Positions 11,632 to 32,759 of a stretch of DNA of 64,000 nt are shown one piece after another (the first letter of the stretch is position 1; every line of letters starts with the position of its first letter). Source of the DNA: Ciborinia camelliae (lineage: Eukaryota; Ascomycota; Leotiomycetes; Helotiales; Sclerotiniaceae); the NCBI GenBank assembly GCA_025890175.1, contig JANPYM010000003.1, positions 3,489,437-3,553,436 of the forward strand. Direction: 5' to 3'. The notes beneath the pieces were generated by a model. That model worked only from the letters and a program-made list of their open reading frames with translations, ran no database searches and was not told the origin of the DNA. The position numbers were made by a program, and so were the translations under genes.

Positions 11632-14600
11632 TCAAGTAGTTAGCAACGGCGCCGCAATATAAAGATCATCAAACTTCTTTCCCAACCTTTCAGGCATCTT
11701 CCACTTTGATATTTTATCCCCCCATGCAAAAGCCGATTTAAACATCGTCACAAAGTCCTCTTGCGCCGGTAATCCCATCACTGGCTTCTCCCAGTAGTCA
11801 TGTACATCTTTCCACTGCTTCTCCCCAGGAGCGGGTTTCGTGGGTATCCAATCAGGATGTGCGTCTTTGAAATCTGGGAACGGCTTTTCGGCTTGAAGAC
11901 TGACTAATGACGCATCTTCGATGTTGAAGGCGGGAAATGGATCAGCTGCGATAATGGGGGGAGGCGCGATGAAGAGTACTCCCATCATTTGGGGGGTCCC
12001 TTCGGAGTCGGCGTTGAGTAGGTCGGAGATGTGGTTATTGCCGCCGGTAGGATCGGTGGAGGACGAGTCTGGAGGTCGATTGTTAGATCAAGTCTACGGA
12101 AGGTTTGGTTTTGATTATACTTACATTTTTGCCAAAGGGCAGTTGGAACTTGCTTTATGTGTCTTTCCATACGCCATCCTTCCTCTTCCTCTTCCATGTC
12201 CAATGAGGTTGGATCTTGTTCAATTGTCACTGCGAGGTTAGATGTCAATGCCTGGGTTAGCTTCGTCGGTTTGCCGTAGACGTCGTATGGAGAATCTAGC
12301 GTCTTTTCGGTTACATCGGTCAAAGTTGCCGATTTTATCGCTATTTTGCATGCTACCACGAAGGAAAAGCTACCTCCACGAACAGTCCAGATCTCATTCT
12401 GTTCCCTCTCTGGTATTTCACTCTCGTTGAGCATCCCGGATTGGACAAGGAATAAATGACCTTGATTCTTGGGAGGCTTGAATGGTTCCTGAGACACCGA
12501 AGCGCTTTGTAGTTCGAGAGATGGTGTATCACCGAGTTGGAGCACCAAATCGTAGAAATCAATGAGCGAAAGAGGGTCTCCTTCATCCTCGCTATCGCCA
12601 AAACTGATGGTAAATGATACAACCCAGAGACTAACATGAACACTACCAGCAACCGGTGGTCCCCAAAGGGTGAGGTCCGCTCCAATTTCGACGGAGATGT
12701 GGGTATGGATGAACAAGATGTCAATATTGACTCTGACTCCGATGGAAATGCCCCCCGTGGCGATGAAGTGGAAGGGCTTATAGTTGATCAAGAAGTCAGC
12801 AAATGCATCAAACCAGGCTTCTATTGGTCCGGAAGAGAACGATGCATGGAGACGACCCCCAGCCATGCAGGCCTTGGGAGTTATTGCGAAATAGGCCTGC
12901 CCAGAAAAGCTAAGACTGCTCCCTAGAGACCAGCTGATACCTAGACGAGGCGGATTGGGATAGCCATCTGGGACCTTGAATGCTTGATGATAACCTCCCA
13001 GAGTGAAGACAAAATCCCCAGTCTTGCTCTTGTCGCAATGTGGAGCTTCAAACCAGTAATAAAGACCAAAGCCTCCAGTCAAGTGACAATCTGGGTGCAA
13101 GACATATGAGCTAGGCGAGAGTTGAGCTTCAGCCTTAAACACCCCGGTATCAAAGTCGACCATGACTAGAATACCCAACTCGATATGCGAAAACTTCGCT
13201 TTCGCTTTCAGCGATGGAATGTCCCCAGTCGCCACTGCGACAATGCTCAGCTTAATCGAAGTGCCAAACTGCACCATCGCCACTGCATCGAGTGAAATCA
13301 TCTCAAAAGCGCTGACTTTGAGCCCTACCGCAGCCCAATACGTATCATCCATAGGACTGAACCATCCCCCAGGCTTGGTCAGATCCTCCAGCGCCTTCAG
13401 TGCATCGTTGCCGGGAACACTTTTCGAAGCCACAAATGGAAATTCTACAACTTTGTCTATTGCTGGCATCTTGACATCTGATTTATATCCAAATCCCCCA
13501 GTAACTCCCGAAATCTCGGCAAATTCCAGAGTCAATAAAGGTCCATCTAGCTTCATGAAGATGAAGACCGAATTAAATTTATTTCCTGTCGGCCCGATAG
13601 CGTTACCATAGAATCCAGCCGCGGTGAATTGCCATGGGACAAATCCGATAATGAGACCACCTGCAAAGTATTCAAGGTCTTCTTGAACTCCATGCCTGAT
13701 TATGCCACCAATTATCAAAGGATCTTTGTCATATAGCGCCGATAATCCTTCTAGGCCTGGCCAAATCTCTGGGGGTTGGTCTATTCGTTTCAATGCAACG
13801 TTGATGCTGAAGCCGAGCAGCGAGAAATTTAGCGGCCCTAAATCCATTGTGGCATCAAATTTGATGACAAGTTTTCCAGACGCCCATTTGAGACCAACAT
13901 TACTAAACGTGAGTGGACCCGTTTTCTTTTTGAGTGGCGCCTCGGCGCCAGTTCCACTGTCCTCTTCTTCGTTCTCTCTAGCATCCAGAGACTTTTTAGC
14001 TGATTTCTTGAAGCAATAATCAAGAACGCATATTTTACCACCTGTTGGTTTGTTGGCAATGATGAAGAAATGAGAGCCTGCGGAAACGAGAACGTCCTCG
14101 GGCTTCTGTTCTTTGAATTTATCGTTGAAAACCAGGCTATCCGCCAGAGAAGCATTGATGTTGGTTATTTCTTTGCGACTGAGGCCTGGAGTCTTTTTGT
14201 CCAGCGCAGTCTCATCTTGTACCCATGTATAGGAGACTTCATCTAGAGGTTGATCGATATGTCCGATAAGAGGAATGTCCAAATCCAGTTTACCGATGGG
14301 ATTGATGGCCACTTTGAGTAATCTCTTCGATGGCAGTGTGTCCAACCAATCAGCGCCATGATATTGGACGAAAACAACTTCAATCGGGCCAACATTAACC
14401 TCTGCAGTGAACAGGAAGGATTCAGCCACAGCTGTGTTGGATTTAGCTTTAGCTTTCTCTTTAGCGACTTTGATGTTGAGTGTTCCACTTTTGCTGCTGA
14501 AGGGCATATCAGCCAGGAACGCAGGAATATCAAGCTGGTCGTCATTTAGAATGCTCTTTATTACATCTCCAATCGTAGCTTCAGCGTCAGTGGGATGCAG

Positions 14601-16596
14601 TTTAGCGCTAAACTTCCAGGTATCTTCATAAACGAAATCAAGTTCGAGTGTAAGACTAGCTATGAGAAGTGTGCCGTTAATCTTAAATGAACTTCCAACC
14701 GAAGTGACCGCGACGTTGCTCTTTTTGTAGCTGTACTCCAATTCCAGCTTATCAAGTGAGATAGACTCAATCAAGGGCATGACATGTTGTGCTGATGAAG
14801 TGTCAAAAAACTCAGCAAGAGTTGAAGCATACAGGCCGTTTATCGACCCCTTCAATCCCCAGGTTTTAGCTTTGGAGTCATAGTCTAATTGTCCCTGTAT
14901 AGTAGCAGGGTCTTTATGCTTGGATGCTACACTAGGGCGAAGACCGGCGAGAATTTTGAACTGTAGCGTGAAGCTCGAAGCAGGACTCCAAGTGTAACTG
15001 AAAGCCAATCGTAGAAGGCCAAGATAGGGCTGAGGAAGGTCACCGGGTTCCGCACCGCTAGAGGCTTTCACTGTTGCCCTGATGGCAAAATTCTTGTCCG
15101 AGACAGATATATAAGCCTCGGTTATATCCGTGGGAATGTAGTTGGGAAGATTGTCGACAGTCTCGCCACCAGGTATAATCTTCAACAACTTGATGCGATC
15201 TGCCGGGTCCTCCGTGATGGGTTTTAGTTCAGTCCATGGTTCATAAGTTGGACTAGTAGTCTTAGTAACGTCAAACCCTGTAAAAATAAGCACAATACTT
15301 GAACTTGTACGATATTTGTATCTTACCGGTCCAAAGTTGTCCTATTAAAGAACCTAAGCCGCCTATTGTTGCCGTCCAGGAATAAGTAATTAGAAATACC
15401 ACCGTCTGGACAGAGTCGTGATCCTGTCCAAAGGTCGCCGGTACTTCGATATCGACCCTAAAATCGGACACTTCGGTTGCAGGATATGCCGCATCGCCAA
15501 GTGCAAGACCGATGGTGATGCGTCGTAGCTTGATTGCATCCTTTTTGAATGCTCCGCTATCTTCGAGAATCTGATGAACGTCCAAACTTGCTCCTGTGAA
15601 TCCAGCAATCCATGACAACATAGATGCCAATGATTCAAGAGTAGGTTCCAGTATGATTTTGATTGATGTCTGAAGCCACAAAATCGCAGCTTTCATTTCA
15701 GACTTTTCAGAGCCCACTAGAACTGTGGTGTAGAAGATAATTTGTCCTGCATTGATGGGTACTTGAGCTGTGCTTGTATCCATTGCCCCTAGAACCCTCT
15801 TACAAACTATGTTTGCATCTTTGATAATGAGGTCTGGAATGATGTTCAATTCATTCTGCAGATTCTCCAGCGTAGTCAGTTCGAATTGCGTTCGAAACGT
15901 GGTCTCAAAATGGTTCGCAGGACGGAACCACAAGGCATTGCGATTATCTTTTGCTGTGGACGCGTCCAATGTGACCTCCGTATCCAAAATAATAGCAGGA
16001 ATATAGCTGAGCATACTGGCCAGACCCGAATACGTGATAACTGCCCTGATAGTCGGCTCGATCGGTTTGAGTAAAGATTCATCTAACCCACAGTAAAGGG
16101 TAGTTCCATCAAGGCTGATACCACTTTCGGGAATCTGCTTTGAATCATCGCCAAAAGAAAATTCCAGGTCTTTCGTAGCAGAGCCGAATGGTAAAGCCCA
16201 TGGATTGGAGAAAGAGAAGTGAAAACTTTCGATCTTTTGCTGATTGTCGAATTTCAACGAAAACTTGTACCCTTCCTTCTTGTTATCGTTGAGTAAAGAA
16301 AACCACTCCACCAATCCATCACTGCTGTCGATTTCAACAATCAGGTTTGATTCTGTCGGTTCGGAGACCAAAGCGATGAAGCCGTATTTCAGCGCGCACA
16401 CAAAGTTGTCATGACTAGTTCCTGACTCAAGGTCAATGCCGTTGGTTCCAGGAACTTTCTCTGCCTTAGTCGACCAGATGTAGAACTTTTCATTCGGATC
16501 TTCGATTTGTCCCCTTAGAGTTAGAGACTTTAGAGAGAGAAAATGGGAGGTCTGGGAGGTCTGTGAGGTATCTTTGGACAAAATAGCTCTAGACAT
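11632..16596 (-). CDS. giant DUF6603-like protein
   Basis: Three exons: 15327-16596, 12125-15277 and 11632-12068. The introns are GTAAGA...TTACAG (49 nt) and GTAAGT...CTCCAG (56 nt), both phase 1, giving 1619 aa. The ATG at 16596 (MSRAILSKD) is the first real ATG. No signal peptide or clear transmembrane helix. The protein is mostly alternating hydrophobic/polar beta-type sequence. Residues about 890-1330 (from DLGPLNFSLLGFSINVAL through IIGGIIRHG, GLIIGFVPWQFTAAGFYG, LGGYHQAF and LTLWGPPVAGSVHVSLW to DPLSLIDFYDLVLQL) match what I know as DUF6603, found in bacteria and some fungi with no assigned function. The C-terminus carries short Pro-rich motifs around APPPIIAADPFPAF. It sits head-to-head with the 1373-aa gene, 655 bp apart. 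Function unknown; a structural or binding role is more likely than catalysis. Confidence 0.85.
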
Positions 16597-17251
16597 TTTG
16601 ACCGGCAAGTTGAATTTTGTTGAAGTTAACGATAGGCTTCATTTGAAAATGCCAAATACATACTCATTGTTATTTCCATTATCTCCACTTACTTCTCATA
16701 CGCGTGAATGTTCCCTTTCCCCTCACTTTGGGGTTGCATTTTCGGAACAGAGTCATCGTCATACAATAACATGTACTTCGATGATACACTGTTCCACCGC
16801 CGAATTCGGCATATCTTGAACATACGATACTTACATAACTGAGGACCAACACCACCTTAACCCGGGCCACGTCCTCCACTAAGCAAGGAACACATTATTG
16901 CAGGTTGAGGCGAGCGGTTATGCTGCGTTCCCTTCACTTCTCGCTGCATATCGTCCTGTTGTGTTGGTGACAGGGTCTGGCGGTCATGTCACCCGTGTAC
17001 ATGTGTATGCTGGTGTCCATTTGTATGCTCGTGTGCATTTGTATGATGGTGTGTATGTGTATGCTGGCGTACATGTAGATGAAGATGCAGTACACTGTAT
17101 CAGAGTACTATAATGATAGCTGATTAAGTTCCTTTCAGTTATTTGTCAAACATTCTTCTCAGTAGGTAGCTTTGATCACCTTAAATGCCTTCGTCAAGCT
17201 GACTCGCTTGAAAAAGTAACAAAATTTTCTCCCAGGAAGTAAACCATCACA
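16597..17251. promoter_or_regulatory. bidirectional promoter with 18-bp tandem repeat
   Basis: Shared upstream region of the DUF6603-like gene (-) and the 1373-aa gene (+). It contains five head-to-tail imperfect 18-bp units at 16995-17084 (consensus GTGTnCATnTGTATGcTG). Frame +2 through the array reads as a six-residue VHVYAG-type repeat, but that ORF lacks a convincing start and I treat it as non-coding. Confidence 0.6.
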
Positions 17252-20200
17252 ATGGCGACTGAACCCCTTCTTATACCATTGCAACTAAATGCATTCGCGC
17301 TGAACCCACCAGTCTGTGGTGAACTAGATGATCATGGGGCTCGCATTATCCCCGTCACGCAACCCAACTACACCTTTCTTCGCCTGGACAATTTCCTCAT
17401 TCAGAGTGATGTTCAAAGCCATGCAGATATGCACAATACAGCACCAGCAGACTTCAACAGCCGCATGACAGATCTTGGTCCCAACCCATCAAAGCCGCGA
17501 CGTAATCGCCATGGAATCTACGTGCATTGGATGTTACCACGTGCGTATCGCGATGGGTCGACTTCTACGGATACTGTTCCCGAGAAACGTCGTCGTGAAG
17601 AGCGTCAACGACGAGGTATGCCCATAGACGACAAGCGTGACCCAAATACCATCGCAAATACTCCCGATTATATCCAACCACCTTCACGGTGGATGGTCAT
17701 CCGCAAATTGGATTTGAACAGCATTAAACCGGAAGATGCGAAGGGCAAATTCAAAGAATACGAAGCTTGGGTCATCGAAAGCGATTACCGCTGGGAACTT
17801 GACGAGATACCCGATGATTTGGACCTTCAGATTGACATGTCGCCTTTTGTTGCTGCGCAGGCTGGAGCAGATCCCAATATTGAGCAACAGGCAGAGGTTT
17901 TTATTGGGCGGAAAACGCCTCTGGATGACTGGCCGCCAGAGCCTATGACTCGTGATCCAGCAAACATCAGTCTCTTACAGAGTAGTAACCAGCTATTTGC
18001 CGACATTCAACTGCACAATGGCAACGTGTTTAGCATATTGGACAACTTCCAATACGAGGACACGTCAGGCCCAAAATACCTTGACAGTGCTGTAAGCAGT
18101 TACTATTTGTTGGGCTGGCATTGGAACGATGCATCGGATTTTATGCACAGCCCCTACGGCGACTTTAAACACAAAGATAGAATTTCAGATCGCTTCATGG
18201 AATTTAAAGGCAGTTTGAGCCCCGAAATCGATGATTGGCTGAACAGCGGTGACCCCGTTCGTATCATTTGCCACGGAGCCATGTATAACGTGAAGTGGGA
18301 TCATGGAGAGAAACCAGAAGATATACCCGCCGACAAGTTTTCCCAAAGACTACAGGATCAAACAATTTCATGCATTTCTGTTGGAACCACCCCAATGAAT
18401 GCATTGATATCTTATTGTCAGGCCCGAAAAGGTACTGGTGCGGATCCGGAAGTGGTTGAGAAACTCCAAGAGGACATTCTTGCCATAGAGTCCCTCCTTT
18501 ACGCGCGTGATGATGGCGTCGAACAACAGCGACAAGCAAAAGATTCTGTTTACAACTGGAATTTCACACGAGCTCAGGGAGGCACTCACTACTTTATAGG
18601 TGGCGAAAACGTCAAAGGACAACCAACGCAGCCAGATCCGGAATCGATCAAGGTGTTGAAAGAGTTGAATGAATACCAGGTGCTCCTTGATTCCTGCAAT
18701 CGAACATGTCAACAGTATCGTTGGGACATGTTCTCTCTGTGGTGGAAGTATGTCAGTGATGTGAGCAATCAAGACCGTCACAAACAAGATCCCACCTTCA
18801 AAAACAAAACCACAGCACTCTATGAGCACATTATAGCATTGGAGAAACACATCAAAGAACTGCAGAGTCATATTAACAGTCTACTCCCTTCCAAAACCTC
18901 ACCCAATGAACTGAAACCGCTTGCAAACGCCAAGTCGGGGACAATGCCTTTTTTCTACAGCGGTCGAGATCCCACTCTCCTGGTTGGTGGCATTGATTCT
19001 GGTTGGCCATCCGACTATTTGGACAATGTGGCTGTCCGCTTACAATCCGAAGTTATCACATCGGATTTCATCCCTGATACATTGGCTGCGATTGCCAGAA
19101 GACTAGGGGATGTACTTCCTGATATGCTAGTATCACCGGGAACAGCACTAACGTCTGAATTCTTTGCATTGGAAGACACAAAGGAACCCGACCCTCCAGC
19201 AGGGAAGAGGTATCCCCAGTTCCATGACGAGGTGGACGGAAGATGGAGAGACCAGTGGGCAAATAAGCAGCCATGGTTTCCTCTCTACACTGAATGGGAA
19301 GTAGAATATACCCACGTGCCGTTCGAATACTGGTCAATCGATGAGCATACATCCCGTCTATCTGAGGGATCCCTGGTTCAATATGGAATCCACGTCCCAG
19401 ATGGTAAACCGTTGTATGAGGAACTAGGAGATGAAAAGAACCATGATATACGGGTGCTTTCAGGCCGCGCTTTGATACTCCCCCAGCCTAGTTTTTCGCT
19501 TTCCGCCAAAGTGAAGCAATTATTTGACGACACACCACCACAGATTCTAGATCAGTATTTAGACAAAAATCGTCGCACTGAATTACTAGATGGTTTAAAG
19601 AAACTATCATATCTGTCATCGCCACTGTCTGGGTTACTTCAGGGACTCGTCACTCTGTCTCAAGGCAGTCACATCAAACCAGAGAACAAGAAAGTCGATG
19701 AAACAGGCGACCATTCCTTCCCCATAAAGGCAGCCTTATTCCCTGATGCCGGTTTCACTGAGGATACTGTTGGTGCGATTGCGAACAACTCTGCATTGAC
19801 CCCATTCGCAGCTCTAGCAAACTTCGTCGATCCTAACCATTGTCCATTTAAGCCCGTCGCACATGGTCAGTTCAGGTTCCGAAAACTCAATATTATTGAT
19901 CGATTTGGTCAGGCGCTGGTCTCGATCGACCCACAACCGCATGTAGAAGGCCCCCCACCTCTGTATCCAAACATTGGCCACTTCTATGAGCCACAGTTGA
20001 TCAAAGACACTGGGGATGCTGATACAGTGATCAAGAGCCCCCCAGCACATTGTGAGTTTATTCAGCTGCCGCCTCAGATCAATCAAGATGCCCGTCTCAA
20101 TGCTTCATTTGTGAAGCGTGCCGCCGATGATCCTGATCCACCAAAAATTGAGAGCCCAGCATATTGGAGGCCCGCTACAGAGTGGGAAAATCCAATCTGG

Positions 20201-21373
20201 GGATGGATAGTAGCTAACTATGCCGACTATGGAATCCAGCTATTTCTTCCCAACGGCACCTTTTACCGTGAGGTGCGCATTGGTGGGCCAAACGGGGCAC
20301 TTGCAGGACCTAAATGGATGCCATTTGGTCCTGATACCCTCGACCCCCCAGTAGACTCGCCGCAACTAGATGCTCTTGTCGATAAACTTGCTGATGCTCA
20401 ATATCTGGAAGGGTTTTGGAAGCTGATAACAGTTGCTTTGGATAAATTGCCCGCAGCGCCAAGCGTCTATGCGCAGTATTTAAACTCAATTGTCGGAAAG
20501 CCTCTGGCACTTGTCAACATGGGCTGGTCGTTAGAAGTGGCAGGTCCACAGTTGGTGAATCAATCGACAAATGCCGAGGTAAAGAATCCAGAACGATGGT
20601 TGTTACCAGATCCCGAAAAACCACAGCGTCCATTTTACACATTCCAGGTGAAGCTAGGAGATAAAGAGCGCGAATACGACGGATTGGTTGGTTATTTTGA
20701 CGTGGATGAAGCTCTACATCCAGGAACAGAGCTTGACCTCCGAGTGATTCATACATATTTTGCTCCGCCCGAACCAGAGACTCCCAACGATCCTAGGCAT
20801 CTTTTGACGACAGACAGCTATCCACAATTGACGCCATTCTGGGATCCTCCGTTCCCTCAAACTCCACCATATGACAAGCCCGTCTCTGCAGAGGAATATA
20901 TCAGTCAGCGCAACAATCATTTGCATGTCTATGGTGCCATTGTCGATCCTTTCACTGCTGTCAATGCCTATTCTTCGTTCTTGCCGACACAGTCTCTTGA
21001 ACTACCTTCATGGACATGGCAGGAAGCTATGAACACTATGACAGCATTCTTCTATTCGGGGCCACTCACTATCATCGATGATGTGAAGCTGTATGACCCC
21101 AGTCGTAAGCTGACTACTGCAAATATGAAGGACCGTCCCCCGGTAAATTTGCCTATTCCATCTCTCGGAACGGGGGAATGGAATTGGTTGCAGCCATATG
21201 TCGACCCGGAGGAGAAGAATCCGGATACCAGTGTACCAGTGTTCAATTCGTACGGAGTGGAAAAAAAGGGTGATAGTCTTAAACCGGGTTTTGAGAAAGG
21301 TCCGTACACTGCGATTGAAGGGTTCCTGCAGTTACGGCAGCCAATTATGGTGGAGAACCCTGATCAGCCATAA
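17252..21373 (+). CDS. 1373-aa intronless protein of unknown function, partner of the DUF6603-like gene
   Basis: One uninterrupted ORF from an ATG in strong context (CACAATGGC). No signal peptide or transmembrane helix. Recognisable blocks: N-terminal PVTQPNYTFLRLDNFLIQSDV followed by DMHNTAPADFNSRMTDLG and RRNRHGIYVHWMLPRAYR; a mid-protein helical region with heptads near residues 525-550 (ALEKHIKELQSHINSLL); HVPFEYWSIDEH; GALAGPKWMPFGP; and a C-terminal NYADYGIQLFLPNG region. I know no named domain for these. From memory, unnamed bacterial proteins share the N-terminal layout and lie beside DUF6603 proteins, but I cannot verify it. A 4.1-kb gene without introns is unusual here. It diverges from the DUF6603-like gene, so co-regulation is likely. 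Real gene: high confidence; function: none assigned. Confidence 0.85.
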   Translation: MATEPLLIPLQLNAFALNPPVCGELDDHGARIIPVTQPNYTFLRLDNFLIQSDVQSHADMHNTAPADFNSRMTDLGPNPSKPRRNRHGIYVHWMLPRAYRDGSTSTDTVPEKRRREERQRRGMPIDDKRDPNTIANTPDYIQPPSRWMVIRKLDLNSIKPEDAKGKFKEYEAWVIESDYRWELDEIPDDLDLQIDMSPFVAAQAGADPNIEQQAEVFIGRKTPLDDWPPEPMTRDPANISLLQSSNQLFADIQLHNGNVFSILDNFQYEDTSGPKYLDSAVSSYYLLGWHWNDASDFMHSPYGDFKHKDRISDRFMEFKGSLSPEIDDWLNSGDPVRIICHGAMYNVKWDHGEKPEDIPADKFSQRLQDQTISCISVGTTPMNALISYCQARKGTGADPEVVEKLQEDILAIESLLYARDDGVEQQRQAKDSVYNWNFTRAQGGTHYFIGGENVKGQPTQPDPESIKVLKELNEYQVLLDSCNRTCQQYRWDMFSLWWKYVSDVSNQDRHKQDPTFKNKTTALYEHIIALEKHIKELQSHINSLLPSKTSPNELKPLANAKSGTMPFFYSGRDPTLLVGGIDSGWPSDYLDNVAVRLQSEVITSDFIPDTLAAIARRLGDVLPDMLVSPGTALTSEFFALEDTKEPDPPAGKRYPQFHDEVDGRWRDQWANKQPWFPLYTEWEVEYTHVPFEYWSIDEHTSRLSEGSLVQYGIHVPDGKPLYEELGDEKNHDIRVLSGRALILPQPSFSLSAKVKQLFDDTPPQILDQYLDKNRRTELLDGLKKLSYLSSPLSGLLQGLVTLSQGSHIKPENKKVDETGDHSFPIKAALFPDAGFTEDTVGAIANNSALTPFAALANFVDPNHCPFKPVAHGQFRFRKLNIIDRFGQALVSIDPQPHVEGPPPLYPNIGHFYEPQLIKDTGDADTVIKSPPAHCEFIQLPPQINQDARLNASFVKRAADDPDPPKIESPAYWRPATEWENPIWGWIVANYADYGIQLFLPNGTFYREVRIGGPNGALAGPKWMPFGPDTLDPPVDSPQLDALVDKLADAQYLEGFWKLITVALDKLPAAPSVYAQYLNSIVGKPLALVNMGWSLEVAGPQLVNQSTNAEVKNPERWLLPDPEKPQRPFYTFQVKLGDKEREYDGLVGYFDVDEALHPGTELDLRVIHTYFAPPEPETPNDPRHLLTTDSYPQLTPFWDPPFPQTPPYDKPVSAEEYISQRNNHLHVYGAIVDPFTAVNAYSSFLPTQSLELPSWTWQEAMNTMTAFFYSGPLTIIDDVKLYDPSRKLTTANMKDRPPVNLPIPSLGTGEWNWLQPYVDPEEKNPDTSVPVFNSYGVEKKGDSLKPGFEKGPYTAIEGFLQLRQPIMVENPDQP

Positions 21374-22174
21374 AGCCACCTATATAGCCACAATAACCAT
21401 GGCCATGCTTCAACAGATTTAGCAGGTGGTATGACCATTCAGATCGGATTTTGGTGGAAATGCAAATTTTTTCAGGGTATGAATGGCCCAAACAAGATGT
21501 ATCTAAAGTTATATTCAAGCATATCATGGTGAAAATGGAAGTAATCCTTGACTGTTAACATGAGAATGTGATAGGCTGTCGTGTTGTCGCTGTAGAGGCC
21601 TTACGAGGTAGTCAGCGATGTTGTCTTAGATGATTACGTAAGAACCCCTCAATTTAAACTCATTGTGGCTGCCGTCTTCAGATCACACACATTCAATCAC
21701 AAAAGCACACCTGCGCATTTTTTCTTGCCTTGCAACTTGACGCGAATATATTCAAGCACAATTTGATGAACACATGTTTTGCCGAAGGAATAGTCATTCT
21801 TATCCAGGGGTTACAATGGTCCGGGCTGGAGACTACTGTCCAGTAATAAGAGATTCTTGATTGTTGACTCTATTCAATACATTGGATGTACTCTAGATAT
21901 TGACCTTTATTGATAGATTGAATCTATTTGGATCAATAGACCCCATACAAAGATACACACATTTTTGAACGTTAACAACTTTTAGATTTGGACTGGAGTC
22001 CGAAATATTAAATCTTTTGGTCCTATCGAATCAAAACGAAGTAGTTATCCATCAAGAAGCTCTGTTGAAGAGCATATTTCATTTTCAACTGGCTACTCAC
22101 AGTAGCGAGATACGGAGACATGATAAATCATCCACTCATCAAAAATTAAATTAAGAAACAAAGTCCTGTGCCTT
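21374..22174. other. intergenic between convergent cluster genes
   Basis: No coding region supported. AT-rich 3' flanks of the 1373-aa gene and of the minus-strand lectin-like gene. No repeat of note. Confidence 0.5.
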
Positions 22175-23168
22175 TCATTCGATACATGACATCCTGAGGG
22201 GAATCGGGTCTCGCAGATGCTTGAACTTCGGAGTTTGTTGAACTCCAATCAAAGACGTCTTATCCTCGACATAAAACACGTGGTTCACCTCGTTTGCAAT
22301 GGTTGCCGAAACCTTCGAACCCAATAAAACTTTCGTCGCTCCTGGAACTTCCAAACTAGGCCCCCACTTATTATCTTCCTTAACGATGCGGCGGATCTCG
22401 AGTGTATCCAAGACGAAATAGAGAAAAACCTTGTTGGTATCTTTCTCACACGTGACGGCAATGGGGGTTCCATCCTGGGCGCCGGTGGCGTTTTTGATCG
22501 GCGTGTCTGAAGGATATGAGTTTGATGGTGTGAAAGATGTTGGGAAGAACTTACCATATGTCGTGCTACAATTATACTCGTAAAGTTGTTTGTTCTTCAA
22601 GCCCTGGTAAAGAACGAATCTGTCACTGCCAATACAGTAGGCCGCCAAGCAAGATCCCGGAATAATATCACTGGTATCGGGAAGCTCAGAGCTGGTCCGG
22701 GTCGAATAGCTGTAGTCACGGACCTTGATTTTGGCGTCGTCGGAACCGCTGTAGATGGTTAACATTGGCTTGTCATGTTTATGATACTACCTACTTGAGA
22801 TAATAAACATGGAGGTCGTCTACTGTGGCAGTAGAGGCGATAGAAGTTCGATTGCTCTGAGTTGTTTCCAATGGCTCGTACGAAGGACTCAAAATCGACA
22901 CATCGTAAAGGACGTCAGTTTCTGGTTTCTCGGTGAGACCAAGAACAAGGTTTACACCTTCATAGTCACTACTGGTCAGATGGGACTGATCCACTATGAT
23001 TCCTTTGTTAGATTCTGGTCCGCCGGCAAAATCAAAATCAGGGTCTGGGCCCGATCTTTTTCCATTGCGTAGGAGAAGACCAAGGTTCATTAGGGTTGTA
23101 TTGTAATAGAGGTGGACACTGGCATGGTCTTCGACGGCTTTGTTCACGATTGAGGTAACGGCGGACAT
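22175..23168 (-). CDS. beta-propeller lectin-like protein (fucose-lectin type)
   Basis: Three exons: 22795-23168, 22555-22748 and 22175-22506. Introns are 46 nt (GTAGGT...CTACAG) and 48 nt (GTAAGT...TTCAG), giving 299 aa. Start MSAVTSIVNKAVED. There is no signal peptide, as in the cytosolic fungal fruit-body and spore lectins. Repeated blade-like units are visible: VHLYYNTTLMNLGLL, LHVYYLNGSDDAKIKVRDYSY, FVLYQGLKNKQLYEYN, VFLYFVLDTLEIRRIVKEDN followed by KWGPSLEVPG, and VNHVFYVEDKTSLIGV. This pattern (h-x-Y/F-Y-x...L-R-x-Y...W-G) and the length match six-bladed fungal fucose-specific lectins, though blades are diverged and the sugar-binding Arg/Glu/Trp set is not fully evident. It is head-to-head with the 1141-aa gene, inside the DUF6603 cluster. 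Carbohydrate binding is inference. Confidence 0.75.
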
Positions 23169-23882
23169 GATGGATTGATGCTCAATGAGATGGCTTTGGA
23201 GATAATTTTTGAAATGACTGCGGGTCCAATATTTATACTGCTGTGAAAGCAGTTCACAACAATTGAACAACCAATGCTTGATCCGACATTGGAGGCATAT
23301 TGGATTATCATGAATTCGGACAATGATATCCGCCAGGGAACGAAAATATCACACAATGCTCGTACAGGTCTGTAGTGTAAGTCTAGTATACTCATTGTAT
23401 TATGTAAAGCATAATACCCCACGTCTGTATCTCTATGAATCGGGAAGATGCCCTGATACGATTCCTTTTATTGCTGGCAAGGTAACCATAACTGTGCTGG
23501 CTCAGCATGTTCGTCTTTGTGTGATGATACATATCGATATAGAACGAAAATAAAGTAAATTGAACGCAAATATCACACAGTACCCGTACAGGTCTGTAGT
23601 GTAAATCTACTCGTTGTGTTATGTATAACATAATACCGTACATCTGTATCTCCATGAATTAGAAAGGTGTCATCATGTAATTCATTCAATTGCTTGAAAG
23701 TAACCACCCATGTCTTTGGCTCAGAATATTCGTCTTTGTGCGATATAAAATACTGACACGAAGCGGAAAAAGAGAAAATTGATTTCTTTTCATTTTTCAC
23801 ATAGTCTTCGGCTCACCACACCACTCTCTCCACCATCAAGCCACTTGACTCAAAATTTCGTTTCGAAGGATTCCAAGCAGTT
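23169..23882. promoter_or_regulatory. bidirectional promoter with a duplicated segment of about 190 bp
   Basis: Shared upstream region of the lectin-like (-) and 1141-aa (+) genes. Two diverged direct copies lie at about 23340-23530 and 23565-23750, offset 219-224 bp. Both contain AAATATCACACA, CGTACAGGTCTGTAGTGTAA, TCTGTATCTC, ATGAAT and TTCGTCTTTGTG in the same order. No ORF spans them. It looks like a duplicated promoter or regulatory element. Confidence 0.7.
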
Positions 23883-26800
23883 ATGGCAATCTTCACTGGA
23901 AGAAAGAGAAACGCTATCAACTCTCCCCGTTATCTCACCCTTCGCCACTCTCGAAGGGCAGTTCGGCTCAAGAAACGAGCCTTAGGAACTTTATCCGAAA
24001 TAGAAGATACCGAGGAACCAAATCTGTTGCCAGGACAGGAGAAAATAAACTCGTATTGGGTACCTGGTCTTCTAGCAGGTCCTGTTCATCGAATTAAGGT
24101 TCGTCAAGATATCGAGAGTTCGCGCTCGACCGACACACCAATCCAACTTGAGGCCGAACAACCTTTCTTCGTTGATGCTCCGCGGTTCTCCCTGCCAGAG
24201 GGATCAGTACACTCAGTATATCCACCCCCGGGGTATGTTGATGATCATCGCATTCTCCCCCATGTCGTACTCACCGATCCCCATCTACCTTGGGAGAGAC
24301 GTATGGAATCAGCTATCTCAAAACAGGAGATGGCTGAGCAACGGAATCAAATTCCATGGGTGGCCCTGATCACGTTTACCCAAGAAGAATTGAGGCTATC
24401 AACTGAAGAATTAGCCAGAATTTTCGCAGAAACGTCAGCTCAATTGCCAAAGCCCGTCAAACAGACCCCTACCCTGGCTGTGAATATGACTGTTGGCGAC
24501 ATTTGGAAAACTCTAGACATCACTACAGCAATTAAAGAAGATCCACTACAGCCCAAGATGGAAAAAGAGAGGGCTGATTTTATTTTCGCCCCAGCTGATC
24601 TCTTCACAAGTCTTTTCTCGCCATTTGACGAGAAAAACGAGCGACTAGACGTTGAAAATCCGGATCCAAAGCCGTATCAATATTTATCTCATGTCCGTGA
24701 AATCAACACGAGTGGAATGGCGGTGGCTGGTGTAGAAGAGATTGGAATTTTTTCCATCGTTGTTGGTAATCGATCGGGAATTCTGGATAATTTGGCCAAC
24801 ACTTCAGTCTCGGTCCATCTCGTCTCGATCGAAGCTATTCAGACCCTCGCCTTTCCGATTAACACAACGTATGTAGCCTTGCCCTCGCTATATAGCTGGA
24901 ACTATACCGTTCAGCCCCCAGGTATGCTCAATATCCACGAAGGGTTCACCAATCTTGGTAATACATTGAATGTACTTCGTCCCCCCGATTCTATTATCGA
25001 TCAGTTCAAACCAGATCCAGGTGTACCAGAGCGACTCGCCAAGCGACTCGAAGATGGATATTCTATGGTAAAATACCGCACACAAACTGGAGAGGAGACT
25101 GTTGCCCTTTACCATGGCCCTTTGACCCCAACAGTAGTCAAGCCGTGGGATGATGGGGATGAAGATAAATATTTTCGGATCTCTTCAAATTCAGGGGTTG
25201 ATCTTCAGATCCTCGATAAGCAACTTGGTATTATGGATATCACCTACTCATCTGCCTGGCAGTTGGGAAAGACGCTTGCATTGGGAGATCAAGCCTTTGC
25301 CGCAGCACTTAACCGGTTACGAACTGCCATTCACGTTGCCGCTATGAAAGAAGCCAAAGTCGCTACCGTTAAAGAAACCTGTTCTTACGCATTTCGTAGT
25401 CGTACAGATGTATTGGGCAGTCTTTCTGGCATGGCCAAACACTTGGATGATATACATCTTGCAGACTCTCAAGATACTGACAATTTTGCTGCTGGGGGAC
25501 CTCTTCGACGCTGGCATCGTCGCCAACTGCGTAAAGCTGAGATTCCATCTCTCAGCTTTAGTTCCCCAGCTATCGAAGAGAAATATTTGAATAACGCTAT
25601 TCACGCTGCTAAGTCTTTGGGGAGGGCTAAAAATGGCGAAATTTACGATGAGACAAACGATCCTGTGTCAGTAGATTGGATGGCCGTATTGGCCTGGGTA
25701 GTGGATAGAATGTTTCTTGTTGGCGTTCCTGCCCATTATTTTATTCCAGATCCTAGCCATCTTGAGCCAGAAAGCCTTCGGTTTTTCCACATCGATCCCA
25801 ACTGGATTGATGCTCTCATCGATGGAGCACTGAGTTTGGGCAACCACATGGGCGACGATAAGGATCGTGCCGCCATCAAACATGCTCTCAATGCCTACAT
25901 CACAGAGAAAGCCCCGCTCCAAAATAATCCCCCACAAATCCCCGCCTATGGATTCCTGCTTCGCTCTGATCTAGTATCTATGTTCCCTGATTTGAAAGTT
26001 ACAACTTTACCAGACGATCCCATTCATCCTCCAGAGCGTGCACCTCTTCTTCGTCATGAGATTATTGCAGATGGGGTGATGCTTGCATTTACGGACAATC
26101 AACCCGGGACTGACAGTTGGGACGGCCTCATGTTTACTCAACCTCCCCATCAGCAACGCTTTGCAGTTGCCTCGGAATTAGAGCCAACAACTTCTGAGAA
26201 AGAGTCAAATGTAGACATCCTCCGTCAGTATACAGTGGATCGAAACCTAGATCCAGATCGTCACAAGATTCTGGAGGTCATTGAAGTAAAGCCAGAGGAT
26301 TCAGACAACTTATTTATCTGGGGATCAAAGCCAGGTCTTGATGATCTTCACATTCTACGGCTTCCTCGATTTGCAGACCGCCAGCTTTCAGTACTACAGG
26401 AGAAAATGCCCCCGGAATATTTCAATGATGATACTGCTACATCTGCCCTTTTCGCCATGCAGCTCAACGATCCGACCTATCAACTGATTATCAGTTTGAA
26501 GACGTCTCATGCACAAGAGGTTCTTGCAGGTCTATCCAACCGCGGACAAAGTGCTCCTCGTACTTTGAAGCGATTGATACCCGTCAAAATTGACAAGTAC
26601 AGATTGCCAGATGAGCATGAGGATGACAATCGCGTAGAACCCAGTGAATCCCACGCCGGCATAGTGCCATTTTCGCGCGACCCATTGTATCAGCCCGCGC
26701 CGCATGTATTTCTCAGTCTGGCACCGCACGTGCGAGCCCTTCCTATCGAGACTGCACCACCGATACCACGTCCTCTAACATCTACCTCTGTCCCTAAACT

Positions 26801-27308
26801 TGAGGTCCCAGCGCATCCACCAATATGGAATTGTGCTCTTCATTCTCTAGGTCTCGGTTATGTACAACTCAATGATCCCAATCTGCCTCAAGATCTTATA
26901 TTCGCCGTTGCTGCAGACCGCGAAAATATATACAGCACCTACAAACTCAAAGAGTTCTCTATCAAAGTTCCCTTGGGGAATATTGACGATCGTGCCTTGA
27001 TGGAGACATACACCGGACCAGGAGCAAACATGCTTAGCAATCTACGCTTCAATGTTCTACCATCGTTTCTGAAAGATGGCACGAATTCCTTTTTAAAGCT
27101 GAGACTATTACCTCGAAGTAGTAAGGGTTGGTTTCCTGTCGACAGAATCAAGGAGATGGGTTTTTTGTTATGTCTGGCGCAGGTCAATTATTATGAAAAT
27201 AAAAACATGATTGATATCGAAACGTCAGCTGATTACCAGGATGATATTCATAATCCTTACACGAAGAAATTTACAGTTCTTTTCAGAAGGGCTGGAGATT
27301 CATCTTAG
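23883..27308 (+). CDS. 1141-aa intronless protein of unknown function, second large cluster partner
   Basis: Single ORF from AGTTATGGC. The N-terminus is basic (GRKRNAINSPRYLTLRHSRR) but not a clear targeting signal, and no membrane helix is seen. Conserved-looking blocks: SYWVPGLLAGPVHRIKV, FFVDAPRFSLPEGSVHSVYP, LPHVVLTDPHLPWERR, IPWVALITFTQEEL, GIMDITYSSAWQLGKTLALG with DQAFAAALNRLR, a central helical region, and a C-terminal IWNCALHSLGLGYVQLNDP. I do not recognise a catalytic motif. From memory, bacterial unnamed proteins with the same order (VDAPRF, LPHVVL...LPWER, AWQLG..LAL) sit near DUF6603 genes; this needs a search. Intronless over 3.4 kb. Diverges from the lectin-like gene. Real gene: high confidence; function unassigned. 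Confidence 0.85.
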   Translation: MAIFTGRKRNAINSPRYLTLRHSRRAVRLKKRALGTLSEIEDTEEPNLLPGQEKINSYWVPGLLAGPVHRIKVRQDIESSRSTDTPIQLEAEQPFFVDAPRFSLPEGSVHSVYPPPGYVDDHRILPHVVLTDPHLPWERRMESAISKQEMAEQRNQIPWVALITFTQEELRLSTEELARIFAETSAQLPKPVKQTPTLAVNMTVGDIWKTLDITTAIKEDPLQPKMEKERADFIFAPADLFTSLFSPFDEKNERLDVENPDPKPYQYLSHVREINTSGMAVAGVEEIGIFSIVVGNRSGILDNLANTSVSVHLVSIEAIQTLAFPINTTYVALPSLYSWNYTVQPPGMLNIHEGFTNLGNTLNVLRPPDSIIDQFKPDPGVPERLAKRLEDGYSMVKYRTQTGEETVALYHGPLTPTVVKPWDDGDEDKYFRISSNSGVDLQILDKQLGIMDITYSSAWQLGKTLALGDQAFAAALNRLRTAIHVAAMKEAKVATVKETCSYAFRSRTDVLGSLSGMAKHLDDIHLADSQDTDNFAAGGPLRRWHRRQLRKAEIPSLSFSSPAIEEKYLNNAIHAAKSLGRAKNGEIYDETNDPVSVDWMAVLAWVVDRMFLVGVPAHYFIPDPSHLEPESLRFFHIDPNWIDALIDGALSLGNHMGDDKDRAAIKHALNAYITEKAPLQNNPPQIPAYGFLLRSDLVSMFPDLKVTTLPDDPIHPPERAPLLRHEIIADGVMLAFTDNQPGTDSWDGLMFTQPPHQQRFAVASELEPTTSEKESNVDILRQYTVDRNLDPDRHKILEVIEVKPEDSDNLFIWGSKPGLDDLHILRLPRFADRQLSVLQEKMPPEYFNDDTATSALFAMQLNDPTYQLIISLKTSHAQEVLAGLSNRGQSAPRTLKRLIPVKIDKYRLPDEHEDDNRVEPSESHAGIVPFSRDPLYQPAPHVFLSLAPHVRALPIETAPPIPRPLTSTSVPKLEVPAHPPIWNCALHSLGLGYVQLNDPNLPQDLIFAVAADRENIYSTYKLKEFSIKVPLGNIDDRALMETYTGPGANMLSNLRFNVLPSFLKDGTNSFLKLRLLPRSSKGWFPVDRIKEMGFLLCLAQVNYYENKNMIDIETSADYQDDIHNPYTKKFTVLFRRAGDSS

Positions 27309-28547
27309 CTTCCTACCATCATTAATGCCAGTTTATCTCAGAAATCAAACTCCAAATCTTTACCGTTCTACCATGAGATCATTGTTTTCAATAGCATCGA
27401 GTAGTGATATCTTACTATAGACAATACACAGGTATTAAGACCAAATATCATCCATACTTTGAGAAGACCCAATCACAACCAGCCAGCTTTAACCCCATAT
27501 TTTCGTTCAACTGCGAGTTACACCTCAAGACGTCGTGCTCAGGGGAAACCAAGAAGTAGACACGCACAGATTTCCCCGCGATCTACCGATGTATGACACA
27601 ATCTAATAAGTCGTGATACTAGGTATGTTCTTTTGCAAGCATACTATTGCGCTACCACCACAAAAATGCAGGTCCAATCATGTTGCAGACCGAATTCTTA
27701 GTCAAATGCAGTACTGGCATAGTCGCACGACGCATCCAAATTCCGATGAAGATGCTGTGCTGATACCCCGCACTTCGGTGGTTCGTTTCGGCCTTTTGCT
27801 CCCGAGAAAGTAGGATCTTGTTTTCTTAAGTCTAGTGTATGGGCTCACTGCTTCTTGTGTTGTAGTTCAGCTTGCCTCTTGACAGATTGCGGCATTTAAT
27901 GTATTCTCAAAGGGAAACTTCTCCATAATTTGACCATCACCACATTGAATACACTGTGACTGTGTACGAAGTATCGTAATTTTCATTGCAACCTACTACC
28001 TGGGTACGATGTAACAAAACGTGGGAGCTTCAACAATCGATACATGCCAAGTGGTCGTCAAAAGGCTTAGAATATGTTACTCAAGAAAATGGGGAAGGTG
28101 GGGGTGCCCAAAGGTAACCTTGACACTTCTACATTCTTCTTGCGAGAATGTAGCAAATGTGTATCTCTAAGAGTCCGCAGGGCAGCTGAGCTCGGGAGTG
28201 AGAGGCATGCAGAAGATGCATGCCTGTAACATGAATAAATTAAGTCAACCAACAGCAGACTAGAAGCCAGGCGCTGTAATTCCCACTATTACCCCCACTT
28301 CCTGTAGTCTCACATGGTACCATACAAGACGTCTTCATACAGATTCTAACACAATATGTACGTACAAGACATCTGCAAAGCCAGTTTCTCATTTGAAGTG
28401 TCCCACTCCCTTCCGTATTCAATCTCGAACTGCGTCGGTCGTCGATCTGTCTTGACATGAATGCCCCAATCCTGTAGTTTCCATTGCCAACTCATAGGCA
28501 CACAAGAGGCAATGACACACAACAGAGTATCTCTGATCCGTCATCCA
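27309..28547. other. intergenic between convergent cluster genes
   Basis: 1.2 kb with no supported gene. Short ORFs (for example near 27613-27813) lack splice or domain support. No mobile-element ends recognised. Confidence 0.5.
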
Positions 28548-28985
28548 TTATGACACTGTGTTGTCCTGGGGTGGTGGCGGAACCTGCGGCACGACCGTGG
28601 TTTTCAATGCAAAAAGTCCACCCTCTTTGATCGCGCTGATAATTTCATCGAGATTGGTGGGCTCATCAATCCGAACAAGGTCCGATTCGATCATATTCCA
28701 AAGGTAGAACTTCCCATCATTCGATTTGATCATGTACAAGAACTGGCCAGTCTGTCTAACCCGGCACATGATGGCGGAGTCAGGCCCCAATTCGATGCCG
28801 TACATGTACTCCAGTCCCTTTGCTTCGCAATCGGGGTCGTCATTCCAGAAATAACTCCATTCTATTTCGGTTGGGTCGTAAGTCCAGCCTTTCGGTGGGA
28901 CCTCCTGTTATCTGGTCAGATTTTGCTTTGAAGACGCACAAGCTACCTAGGTACGTACAGCAGTGGTCTTAGATGCAGAATCCAT
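28548..28985 (-). CDS. 127-aa small acidic protein, orphan
   Basis: Two exons: 28959-28985 (MDSASKTTA, nine codons) and 28548-28904, joined across a 54-nt GTACGT...AACAG intron in phase 0. The sequence includes GWTYDPTEIEWSYFWNDD, LGPDSAIMCRVRQTGQFLYM, GKFYLWNMIESDLVRIDEP and LDEIISAIKEGG. It ends in a Pro-rich tail (VPQVPPPPQDNTVS). Single-domain, soluble and acidic. The alternating beta/alpha look and the YLWN...LDEIISAI end resemble small SUKH-type or cargo-binding folds only loosely, so I assign none. Its start lies 364 bp from the start of the divergent deaminase-like gene, suggesting a functional pair. Confidence 0.75.
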
Positions 28986-29349
28986 AGTTCTCGTCAGACT
29001 GAGCGACTTATTTTGTGACAATTTGCGAGTCGAAGATGTTGAAATTATTGAAGGGAATGGATGGGAAGTGAGCAAGACGATACGCAGACTAAATATGTGA
29101 GATTTGTGGTTGCCAATGCATGGTTACCTAAAATGCTGTCTGTAATGATCACGAGTGCAGAGAGTACAACCAACAAATTGTGACAATACACCCCCGTGTA
29201 ACCAAGAAAGAAAAATCAACACCAGTACAATATACAATAGTACAATATACAATATAGAATATAAATGATGAATTTTGATGTTTGCGGTTCGCGGCTTGCG
29301 GCTTATTGCGATATCAGTCACTTCGAATATTATTGTAGGACTTGACATC
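28986..29349. promoter_or_regulatory. bidirectional promoter of small-protein / deaminase pair
   Basis: Short region between opposed start codons. It holds an ACAATATACAAT-type AT repeat at about 29226-29265. An in-frame upstream ATG at 29278 could extend the deaminase-like protein by 24 residues; the ATG at 29350 (CATCATGGCG) has the better context. Confidence 0.5.
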
Positions 29350-30589
29350 ATGGCGGACGCAAAAGAAGGAATTAACACTGAGTTCTTGGAAGCCAAGGAA
29401 ATCTTCACTCGAAAAGAGGTAATTTTATCCTCAGTATCATGCAGGAATCTATTTGACCAAAACAGATTCAGGATTTTCTCGACACACAGAGCCATAGAGA
29501 AGATGCAGTTCTGGGGCCTATCTTAGACATGATTAAAAGACTATCGTAAGTCTATTTTCGAACAAATGGAAATTGTGTCTTACTTGTCTAGTCCGGGGCC
29601 GATAGACGAGGGTGAATGGCCAGAAGGAGATCTGTATTCAATTACTACGGATAAGGAAGAGAAAAGGGTTTGGTTATTTGACCAACCTCTCTATCGCAGA
29701 AGGGCGGACGAACTCAAATTCGGAAAATCACCGTGTTTGGTTGAAAAACTGGTTTGCCAGGGGGAAGGCTATTGGAATATATGGTCTTTTCTAGGACTAT
29801 TTCTCTCTATCAAGTACAAAGCACTTCCATTTTCAACCAAGAGAGACTTTTTTGCTCGATTGACGGCCTTATAGTAAGCATAATCGGTTCCTTGCTCTTT
29901 CTTTATGTTTCAGTTTCCGGTCCCCTTCGCTTTCTAATATACATTTTGGTCCTCGCGTTCCCTCCAAAAGCTTCCCTCGATAGACTATTGCTGACTTCCT
30001 GACGTTCCAGTGGCTGGTGGTGTTATGGATTATGCCCCAAGGAGGGCAAAAACGACACCTACCCCGGTGCATATCAATGTACTTGGCGACCACGCACTGA
30101 AGATGGCGGTTTCGACTTCTTTTTGGGGCATGCTTTTGGAGGTCCAAAAGGTCCACCAGAATGGAAGGAGCTTGTGAGAAGGACCAGATGTGATCTCTTG
30201 ATGGGCTTTCTAAAAGACGAAAACTGGGGGTGGGATAATTCACCCGATATCATCAACCGAAGGAAGACTCAGCCTAATAACGCTGGCACCAACTTTGGAA
30301 ACTGTGGTGAAACGTATCCATTCTTAGCACTGATGACGTAGGTCTCCCCTATCTAACCTTCTAACCTTTACTCATCGGTTATAGCGACAGGCCAGAAACA
30401 AGCTTTGGCTATGCTATGGCTAGAATGTACTGGAAGCCAAACACCCCTAAAACGTACAACCCTGCGACAGCCAAAAAAAACTACTTGGCCCCATGCGTCA
30501 ATTGTATAGAACTGCTTCGTATTCTTGGTGGCAATGCTGATAACTTCAAGATTGATATCGGGTGGGATGATGGAGTGTTGCCAGTGTGA
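29350..30589 (+). CDS. deaminase-superfamily protein with CGE and PCxxC zinc motifs
   Basis: Five exons: 29350-29418, 29466-29545, 29592-29873, 30011-30337 and 30385-30589. Introns are 47, 46, 137 and 47 nt, and the frame stays open for 320 aa. Near the C-terminus, FGNCGETYPFLAL (C242-G-E244) is followed about 45 residues later by YLAPCVNCIELL (P289-C290-x-x-C293). The pair C/H-x-E ... P-C-x-x-C is the zinc-binding and proton-shuttle signature of the cytidine-deaminase-like fold. Fungi have several such families, some related to bacterial polymorphic-toxin deaminases; the substrate (nucleoside, nucleic acid or other) cannot be inferred. Upstream, GWWCYGLCPKEG and WRPRTEDGGFDF give a Cys/Trp-rich region. 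No secretion signal. The fourth exon starts after a long intron whose alternative frame is partly open, so its exact boundary is the least secure part. Confidence 0.75.
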
Positions 30590-31651: not shown

Positions 31652-32759
31652 ATGTTTTCTTCCGCCATCCGAAGAGCTGCTTTAACAGCACCACCACTAC
31701 CAATAATACTTCCTATCCACAATGTCGCACCACGAGCGGCTACATCGCAAGCCATGGCATTTGGTTGCCATCAACGGCGATTATCCTCTTCTTCCTCTTC
31801 GAAGCCCTCAAGCCCGGCAGATGGATCGAAGGGAGTAGCGGAGGGGCAGACTGTTCCTGCATCTCCATCACAAACAAGACCTGATGGCGAGAAGAAGGCT
31901 TCGAAGGCAGGGAGAAGAAAGGCAAAGGATACTTCAGGGGGTTCTGCGAACAAAGACGATACCAAGCACAATTTACCCAGTGTGCCTAGTACCAGTCATA
32001 TTGCGCCAAACCGTGAGTTGGCAGACTTTATACATTCACTGGAAAGCCTCTAACATATACATTGCAGAAATTGCCGCATCCGCATTCTTCTCCCTTCATA
32101 GACCCATATCCCTCACGATGAACTTCCCTAAAGCCGTGACCGACGAAGCATTCGCCGCCATCTTCGCGCCAGGAAAACGATCAAATAAATCTCAAGAAGT
32201 GATAGCCACACTATCCAACACACTTAAATCTCTCGACTCCGCCACAGGGTCCCCCAAACAACCTAATACCCAAGACCAATGGAACGAAGAGACCGACGAG
32301 CTCCGCGCCGGCATCACCGCCGATTCCTACAGAGCTCAACATCTCGACAACGCGAACGAACCGCCTCGCTCAATACTCGCCCGCAAATATGCACCCTTTT
32401 CTCCTCCACCTGCGCCCGTTCCTATGAGCACAGAGGAATCGCTTGCAGCCGGCGCAGAAGCCGCTGCCGAACACGAGGAAGCGTATCTCCCCCAACAACG
32501 CACCTACCATACCATCCTCACGATCAACGAATCCACCGATGCAAACGGCGAGATTACATATACTGCGGAAAGTGGCCCAATAGTATCAGAAGACCCACCC
32601 AGAAGCTACCTCGAGCGCACGCGAATCCGTCGCAGGGAACGAGCGACCATGTGGGCTATTAGCGTGAAGAGACAGCGAAAACTCAAGATGAAGAAACACA
32701 AGTACAAGAAGCTGATGCGCCGGACCAGAAATTTGAGACGAAGATTAGACCGTAATTAG
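31652..32759 (+). CDS. mitochondrial small ribosomal subunit protein mS38 (Cox24/AURKAIP1 family)
   Basis: Two exons, 31652-32012 and 32068-32759, with a 55-nt intron (GTGAGT...TTGCAG), encode 350 aa. The N-terminus is basic and hydroxylated without acids (MFSSAIRRAALTAPPLP), a typical mitochondrial presequence, followed by a Ser/Lys-rich disordered region. The diagnostic part is the extreme C-terminus: MWAISVKRQRKLKMKKHKYK followed by KLMRRTRNLRRRLDRN, the highly basic mS38 helix that binds 18S-type mitochondrial rRNA. In yeast the homologue (Cox24/Qri5) is needed for translation of COX1. The middle of the protein is poorly conserved, as usual. Cox24/mS38 call is confident from the C-terminal motif. 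Confidence 0.92.

Follow-up and report, generated by a model that had tools for sequence, protein, structure and literature searches.

Tc toxin complexes are made of three giant subunits with TcA, SpvB or Rhs domains, and bridge-like lipid-transfer proteins of the VPS13/ATG2 type carry a Chorein or related Pfam domain. These systems, together with ApoB100 and other lipid-transfer proteins, LptD and porins, are compared here with a cluster of six genes, designated A to F (Table 1), in a window of 64,000 nucleotides from contig JANPYM010000003.1 of the camellia flower-blight fungus Ciborinia camelliae (assembly of 46.2 Mb in 27 contigs). Three of the six, A, B and D, encode giant proteins and constitute a module that is conserved in filamentous fungi and in very different bacteria.

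The likeness to Tc toxin complexes consists in three giant co-encoded proteins; no Tc, SpvB or Rhs domain was detected by Pfam in A, B and D of the window or of a Streptomyces locus (L003, from Streptomyces sp. NBC_01276; bacterial loci are designated by L and a number), nor in A and D of the Paenibacillus locus L002, and no Chorein or related Pfam domain in two pieces of A. With ApoB100, LptD and porins, A shares long antiparallel strands with one hydrophobic face, but no sequence similarity to solved structures was found, and it differs from them in its low template modelling (TM) scores, in having no signal-like N-terminus and in belonging to a module that is present in fungi and in bacteria devoid of an outer membrane. 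By hydropathy, with no dedicated predictor, the N-terminus is signal-like in 1 of 119 fungal A proteins, so that the signal peptide of outer-membrane beta-barrels is not a feature of this set, and in none of 119 B and 120 D proteins from fungi. The immunoglobulin (Ig)-like domains of copper-binding YcnI, integrins, pilins and adhesins are also among the closest known systems, the model of D having an Ig-like end. In PHROGs, compared for tail and baseplate families of phages and contractile injection systems, only matches of unknown function with E-values of at least 0.01 were obtained, and bacterial A, B and D have no solved-structure relative below an E-value of 0.41; no characterised relative of the three proteins was found.

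The closest described family is DUF6603 (PF20248), of which A is a member; however, the family model spans one domain, and for its regular partners, D and B, Pfam has no family above the cut-off, either in the window proteins or in their bacterial counterparts. No mention of DUF6603 was found in 5.39 million open-access papers, nor of PF20248 and six gene tags, a scope outside which most subscription papers lie.

Fungal relatives and their gene order

In a collection of 5.8 billion proteins, B has 431 relatives, D 317 and A 209; of these, 120 matches for each protein are listed and underlie the counts of locus tags given below. Among these listed matches, the identity to the window protein is 38–72%, self excluded; the closest B among them is 72% identical and the closest bearing an organism name, from Talaromyces, 69%. 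The named organisms listed belong to the Sordariomycetes, Eurotiomycetes, Pezizomycetes, Orbiliomycetes and Dothideomycetes, with a Peltigera lichen in addition, and they include plant-associated, insect-associated and lichen fungi. Botrytis, Sclerotinia and Monilinia, which are close and well-sequenced relatives of Ciborinia, do not appear among the named matches listed.

The neighbourhood of these genes was read from locus tags (79 for B, 73 for D and 88 for A), which in many genomes follow gene order. In such ordered-tag genomes listing both members of a pair, A and B differ by one tag in 14 of 18, B and D by two in 7 of 16, and A and D by three in 11 of 19; distances of one, two and three tags imply the same order as in the window, namely A, B, one further gene and D, with the slot of C occupied. 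The genomes with other distances, all kept in the counts, show values of 5, 11, 13 and 1734 for A-B, of 1, 3, 4, 6, 10, 203, 1113, 5709 and 11287 for B-D, and of 2, 4, 4, 5, 5, 1112, 2401 and 3037 for A-D; the B-D distance of 10 belongs to a project numbered in tens, in which the two genes are therefore probably adjacent. Prefixes containing 'DRAFT' were tallied apart since their numbers need not follow gene order (18 genomes for A-B, 19 for B-D and 18 for A-D), and in these the tag numbers are mostly far apart.

The product of A is identical over its full length to NHQ30_003464 of C. camelliae, and PF20248 matches a 1118-aa piece of it with 516.8 bits against a cut-off of 27, covering profile positions 1–497 of 502; the DUF6603 profile has a single match in the whole genome and B likewise matches once, while D matches at its own locus and at one additional remnant (G000:C22:1873702-1874091, minus strand; 37% identity over residues 564–696, with three stops), which suggests that a second D, or a second module, was once present and has been lost. 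Among the database entries, a few DUF6603 proteins bear odd names, 'histone H2A.Z' (P0282) or 'putative transcriptional activator srcap-like' (P0288, P0301, P0312, P0313 and P0357).

Conserved rows in bacteria

Searches of plasmids by tblastn with A, B and D gave side-by-side matches in Paenibacillus polymyxa, Streptomyces sp. NBC_01276, two Embleya and S. clavuligerus pSCL4, and D and B without A in a plasmid of P. sonchi; a D match in a Pantoea plasmid (E 0.3) was taken as chance. Profiles of the fungal proteins match the bacterial frames with E-values from 1e-38 to 1e-104, and with 4e-8 in the case of one split piece. On bacterial genomes the fungal B profile returned 49 pattern matches and no relative, and a bacterial B profile was required; this was built from six proteins of Streptomyces, Embleya and Paenibacillus and applied to the genomes of 84,980 prokaryote species, where it found 149 relatives. 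Of these the best 80 were kept, which derive from 74 actinobacteria (mostly Streptomyces), 2 Paenibacillus and four metagenome-assembled genomes (MAGs), one each from SAR324, Chlorobiaceae, Gammaproteobacteria and Acidobacteria.

Starting from B, every one of the 80 genome loci has D upstream on the same strand, and 79 also have A ahead of D, the sole locus without A being a 4.5-kb contig whose end truncates D. On plasmids, D is present in 7 of 7 loci and A in 6, so that over the 87 loci D is constant and the full A-D-B row on one strand occurs in 85. The reverse search, starting from DUF6603, covered 1,588 genomes in five phylum samples, five centre genomes included, and the family is over the cut-off in 38 of them (12/396, 9/398, 1/299, 5/199 and 11/296). 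Outside the centre genomes there are 34 places over the cut-off, and a D or D-like gene adjoins DUF6603 in every one. Nineteen of the 34 are of type I, defined by an A of more than 300 bits with a broad profile: here D lies beside A in 19 of 19 and B does so in 17, while the two remaining loci, from one genome, have a piece of B 6 kb off on the other side (L159) or none in the stretch examined (L160). Homologues scattered without co-localisation, the outcome that the sequence-only reading had named as speaking against a multi-component system, are thus not what is found for A, B and D.

The other 15 loci (L133, L135–L141, L143, L144, L147, L161–L163 and L165) contain a distant DUF6603 of 32–107 bits and are grouped as type II, encountered in bacteria only among the loci examined. 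By single-linkage BLASTP each of the 15 possesses a D-like gene; a third giant gene completes the row in 11, and in the remaining four the contig stops short of that position. A profile of the D-like proteins, from 10 of the 15 loci, aligns with D by hhalign over 78 columns (E 1.9e-5, probability 78%). The third giant, B', was rejected as a B (hhalign probability 1.6%) and is not a D either. On the strength of these comparisons, a sister type with a different third giant exists in bacteria.

Some features of the rows were at first sight compatible with other arrangements. Frames of A of 3,227–3,518 codons in nine loci (L134, L145, L146, L151–L155 and L158), with roughly 2,000 additional residues before the matched part, hinted at a fusion of A and D; D is a separate frame in all nine, and Pfam gives nothing but DUF6603 on the long frames of L151 and L158. 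An extra gene between A and D was likewise considered for 19 loci with a gap of more than 600 bp between the matches and was discarded, as in 7 of 7 checked the frame of A extends to the start of D. A phage or virus origin was also rejected: there is no relative of bacterial B in phage records, and viral contigs gave 17 pattern matches and no relative.

Co-variation of the three proteins and their origin

For A, B and D, trees were calculated from 80 sets of bacterial and 17 of fungal proteins; L026, L032, L038, L082 and L083 were left out because their frames are split, and L006 and L009 because they have no A. The correlation of pairwise distances in bacteria is 0.92 for A-B, 0.91 for A-D and 0.97 for B-D, with a permutation maximum of 0.13; in fungi the values are 0.93, 0.85 and 0.89, respectively, with a permutation maximum of 0.45. 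Shared species history adds to such correlations, and the co-variation of the trees therefore supports joint inheritance, not contact. In all three trees, which are unrooted, the fungal sequences group together as one clade (support 1.0), and a transfer from bacteria to fungi is likely.

The predicted sheet of A

The AlphaFold2 model of a piece of A (11988–15341; predicted local distance difference test score, pLDDT, 79.5) is a large amphipathic beta-meander. The core strands are amphipathic, with a face difference of 2.72 against 1.47 ± 0.20 in shuffled sequences, and in residues 70–450 of the model the strands have helices between them. The Foldseek neighbours of the model include porin, S-layer, LptD, usher and ApoB100 chains, with TM-scores of only 0.04–0.30; VPS13, ATG2 and Rhs chains are not among the fold matches listed, an absence that excludes nothing. 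Hydrophobic windows resembling membrane segments occur in 63 of 119 fungal A proteins, 2 of 119 B and 0 of 120 D.

Genes flanking the bacterial rows

Same-strand related open reading frames (ORFs) follow B in 56 of the 87 loci, two to four of them in 11 loci; loci are counted, as the 71 downstream ORFs include overlapping frames (for instance in L068). Eight downstream members of 376–707 aa were compared with Pfam. That of L004 has an F5/8 type C domain above the cut-off; below it, one is bactofilin-like and one has an fn3 match, and the other five gave nothing informative. A frame of L034 (14768–16393) with beta-propeller and hemopexin-like matches was considered as the end of a downstream protein, but it lies outside the cluster of related frames, overlaps one of them and was not counted.

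Upstream of A, genes of the metallo-beta-lactamase type are observed in L004 (12541–13704), L132 (4367–6178, below the cut-off) and L157 (12843–14513), and this position holds a cluster of 10 related ORFs. In a Chlorobiaceae MAG (L075, 458–2452) a DUF4135 protein lies directly upstream of A (68.3 bits against a cut-off of 29). The Paenibacillus polymyxa plasmid L002 carries two baseplate-V genes, together with genes for pentapeptide-repeat and GH-E nuclease proteins, 8–14 kb upstream of the module (1430–7442), and phospholipase-D-like genes lie near the module in both Paenibacillus plasmids (L002, 26018–27091; L006, 16171–16410).

A proposed assembly and its alternatives

Because they lie close together in fungi and in a fixed order in bacteria, A, B and D probably build one machine. 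They would be the three subunits of an ancient and undescribed giant assembly and would bind each other inside the cell, a placement suggested by the absence of signal-like N-termini. In this assembly, D, with its Ig-like end, and B would form the scaffold, while A would supply a large curved amphipathic beta-sheet that either cradles a lipid or hydrophobic cargo or inserts into a membrane. The bacterial gene after B, whose related proteins differ in length and in one case possess an end of the sugar-binding type, may aim the assembly, and in C. camelliae this role may be taken by C, situated between B and D. For C the proposal is an analogy, drawn from its position and from a sub-threshold propeller match, since C is not detectably related to the bacterial downstream protein.

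The linkage, the gene order, the co-evolution and the amphipathic sheet are computed observations, and the steps built on them differ in strength. That A, B and D form one giant intracellular complex is likely, although we infer the contact between them; a role of the module in lipid handling or at membranes, with the cargo and the aim that it would entail, is possible but doubtful. Taken whole, a three-subunit giant assembly with a lipid- or membrane-directed sheet in A, aimed by the downstream protein or by C, is the best explanation and is put forward tentatively, at a little short of an even chance. A wider version, in which an undescribed assembly would have passed between kingdoms as an intact cluster, DUF6603 would be a lipid-carrying or membrane-inserting sheet, interchangeable lectin-type subunits would choose the target and bacteria would hold the sister type II, is a good deal more doubtful than that.

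Several points weigh against this assembly. The downstream gene is not constant: no copy is seen in 31 of the 87 loci, and the sequence stops within 1.2 kb of B in only 8 of these 31; of its eight members compared with Pfam one exceeds the cut-off; C, considered as its homologue, shows no similarity to it by BLAST or hidden Markov models. The fold matches of A combine their low TM-scores with root-mean-square deviations of about 18–45 Å in Foldseek and 10.8–29 Å in 50 VIA rows, and for this reason A is established neither as a closed barrel nor as a lipid groove. Fusions of A with D or of D with B are absent from the loci examined. In a plasmid of Streptomyces europaeiscabiei, a weak DUF6603 match (NZ_CP107864.1, 380883–382055; 24% identity, E 2e-8) stands in a record with no match to B or D. 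Finally, a conserved neighbourhood can reflect a pathway rather than a complex.

Among the other explanations, the one that survives best is a complex for antagonism, or toxin complex, in which giant shell proteins would carry a cargo (F, with its deaminase-like motifs, in this fungus) and lectin-like subunits would bind the target cell. The giant beta-rich proteins, the Ig-like domain of D, the F5/8 type C end of one bacterial downstream protein and the patchy bacterial presence (38 of 1,588 genomes, centres included) fit such a function, as do the baseplate-type and nuclease genes located 8–14 kb upstream on one Paenibacillus plasmid. It is nevertheless unlikely: in A, B and D of the window and of Streptomyces L003 no toxin-complex, Rhs, secretion or effector family is above threshold, the N-termini are not signal-like, and no constant effector gene was seen with the rows, the clusters of flanking same-strand ORFs extending to about 10 loci at most with the exception of the gene after B.

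The taxonomic range of the carriers bears on a second alternative, a storage, coat or developmental particle, that is, a lipoprotein-like or hydrophobic-sheet-like body of spores, sclerotia or aerial hyphae, many carriers forming resting stages. Streptomyces-type actinobacteria and Paenibacillus sporulate, and they provide 74 (mostly Streptomyces) and 2, respectively, of the best 80 of 149 loci; the amphipathic sheet of A and the presence of ApoB100 among its Foldseek neighbours agree with a particle of this type. However, the B query, which derives from Streptomyces, Embleya and Paenibacillus, favours those groups, and MAGs of Gammaproteobacteria, Acidobacteria, Chlorobiaceae and SAR324 carry the module too. 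This explanation is unlikely, somewhat more so than the toxin complex.

A cluster for an enzymatic pathway of the secondary-metabolite type, with A, B and D as unusual enzymes, is improbable, given that no catalytic family is above threshold in these proteins (window and Streptomyces L003) and that the best match of bacterial A, B and D to a solved structure has the E-value reported above, even if divergent promoters and an accessory distribution resemble those of fungal biosynthetic clusters. A last alternative, that the genes act separately and have stayed in proximity through drift or joint regulation without making anything in common, would suit a strand layout that is not unusual, but it is very hard to reconcile with the same three families lying together in fungi and in several phyla of bacteria, whichever way the search is run, and with correlated trees.

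The six-gene locus

The strands of A to F alternate as - + - + - +, forming three divergent pairs. The sequence-only reading had described six genes in this order, with an upstream region common to each pair; all six genes, their strands and the lengths of the three regions are borne out by ORFs and splice models (Table 1). It had further proposed a co-regulated multi-component system, and here the outcome is divided: a system is upheld for A, B and D, clustered in fungi and across bacterial phyla from both search directions, C is included by position only, and for E and F there is no support, so that a six-gene system is not established. Co-regulation, deduced from the divergent pairs, is not borne out, as no promoter word is common to the regions and the bacterial genes are co-directional.

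Table 1. Features of the cluster (positions in the window; strand as read)
Feature	Position	Strand	Description
Gene A	11632..16596	-	DUF6603 giant, 1619 aa; three exons 16596-15327, 15277-12125, 12068-11632; two introns
Upstream region common to A/B	16597..17251	.	655 bp
Gene B	17252-21373	+	1373 aa, single open frame; neighbour of A and D in fungi and bacteria
Gene C	22175..23168	-	315 aa, one intron; possible beta-propeller (sub-threshold); slot between B and D
Upstream region common to C/D	23169..23882	.	714 bp; holds 219-bp duplication
Gene D	23883-27308	+	1141 aa, single open frame; Ig-like C-terminal domain in model
Gene E	28548..28985	-	127 aa, one intron; no family
Upstream region common to E/F	28986..29349	.	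364 bp
Gene F	29350-30589	+	~308 aa, several introns; hand-joined model, open frames support pieces only

By itself the strand layout is weak evidence for a system, because simulated random strands produce such a run in 9% (12 genes per window) to 22% (24 genes) of windows and the three upstream regions have no 8-mer in common; eight 7-mers are shared against 11.1 ± 5.6 in controls. The duplicated unit of the C/D region spans 23338–23744 (1.8 copies, 76% matches). The G+C content of the cluster is inside the range of the remaining window, and only C intervenes among A, B and D.

C had been called lectin-like and F deaminase-like. Spliced C has no match in Pfam, and its one similarity, to an NCBIfam beta-propeller lectin, is sub-threshold (12.5 bits, E 0.057, cut-off 200); it has no solved relative below an E-value of 0.07, and a 203-aa piece of it has a single match in the genome. 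In F the motifs C-G-E and P-C-V-N-C, spotted by eye, resemble a deaminase signature; Pfam returns no deaminase family for spliced F up to an E-value of 10, no solved relative was found and F matches the genome solely at its own place. Neither label has support from Pfam.

Around the cluster, Pfam identifies ordinary fungal genes, which comprise a DHHC transferase (3761–4750), a COX24 C-terminal protein of the mS38 type (31884–32756), a class I myosin (34075–37095), a ferric reductase (42498–43637), a GtaA glutaminase (54098–55660) and an APH-type kinase (60713–62443). Long simple-repeat tracts, many of them G-rich or C-rich, are located at 43801–44750, 49393–50264 and 56536–56678, with a local GC skew of up to about 0.45 in either direction.

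Significance

The finding that A, B and D travel as one unit offers a first handle on three giant protein families without known function, for which the bacterial operons are tractable. If it is true that the fungal cluster came whole from bacteria, a machine of several subunits would have moved between kingdoms without being broken up, which is rare.

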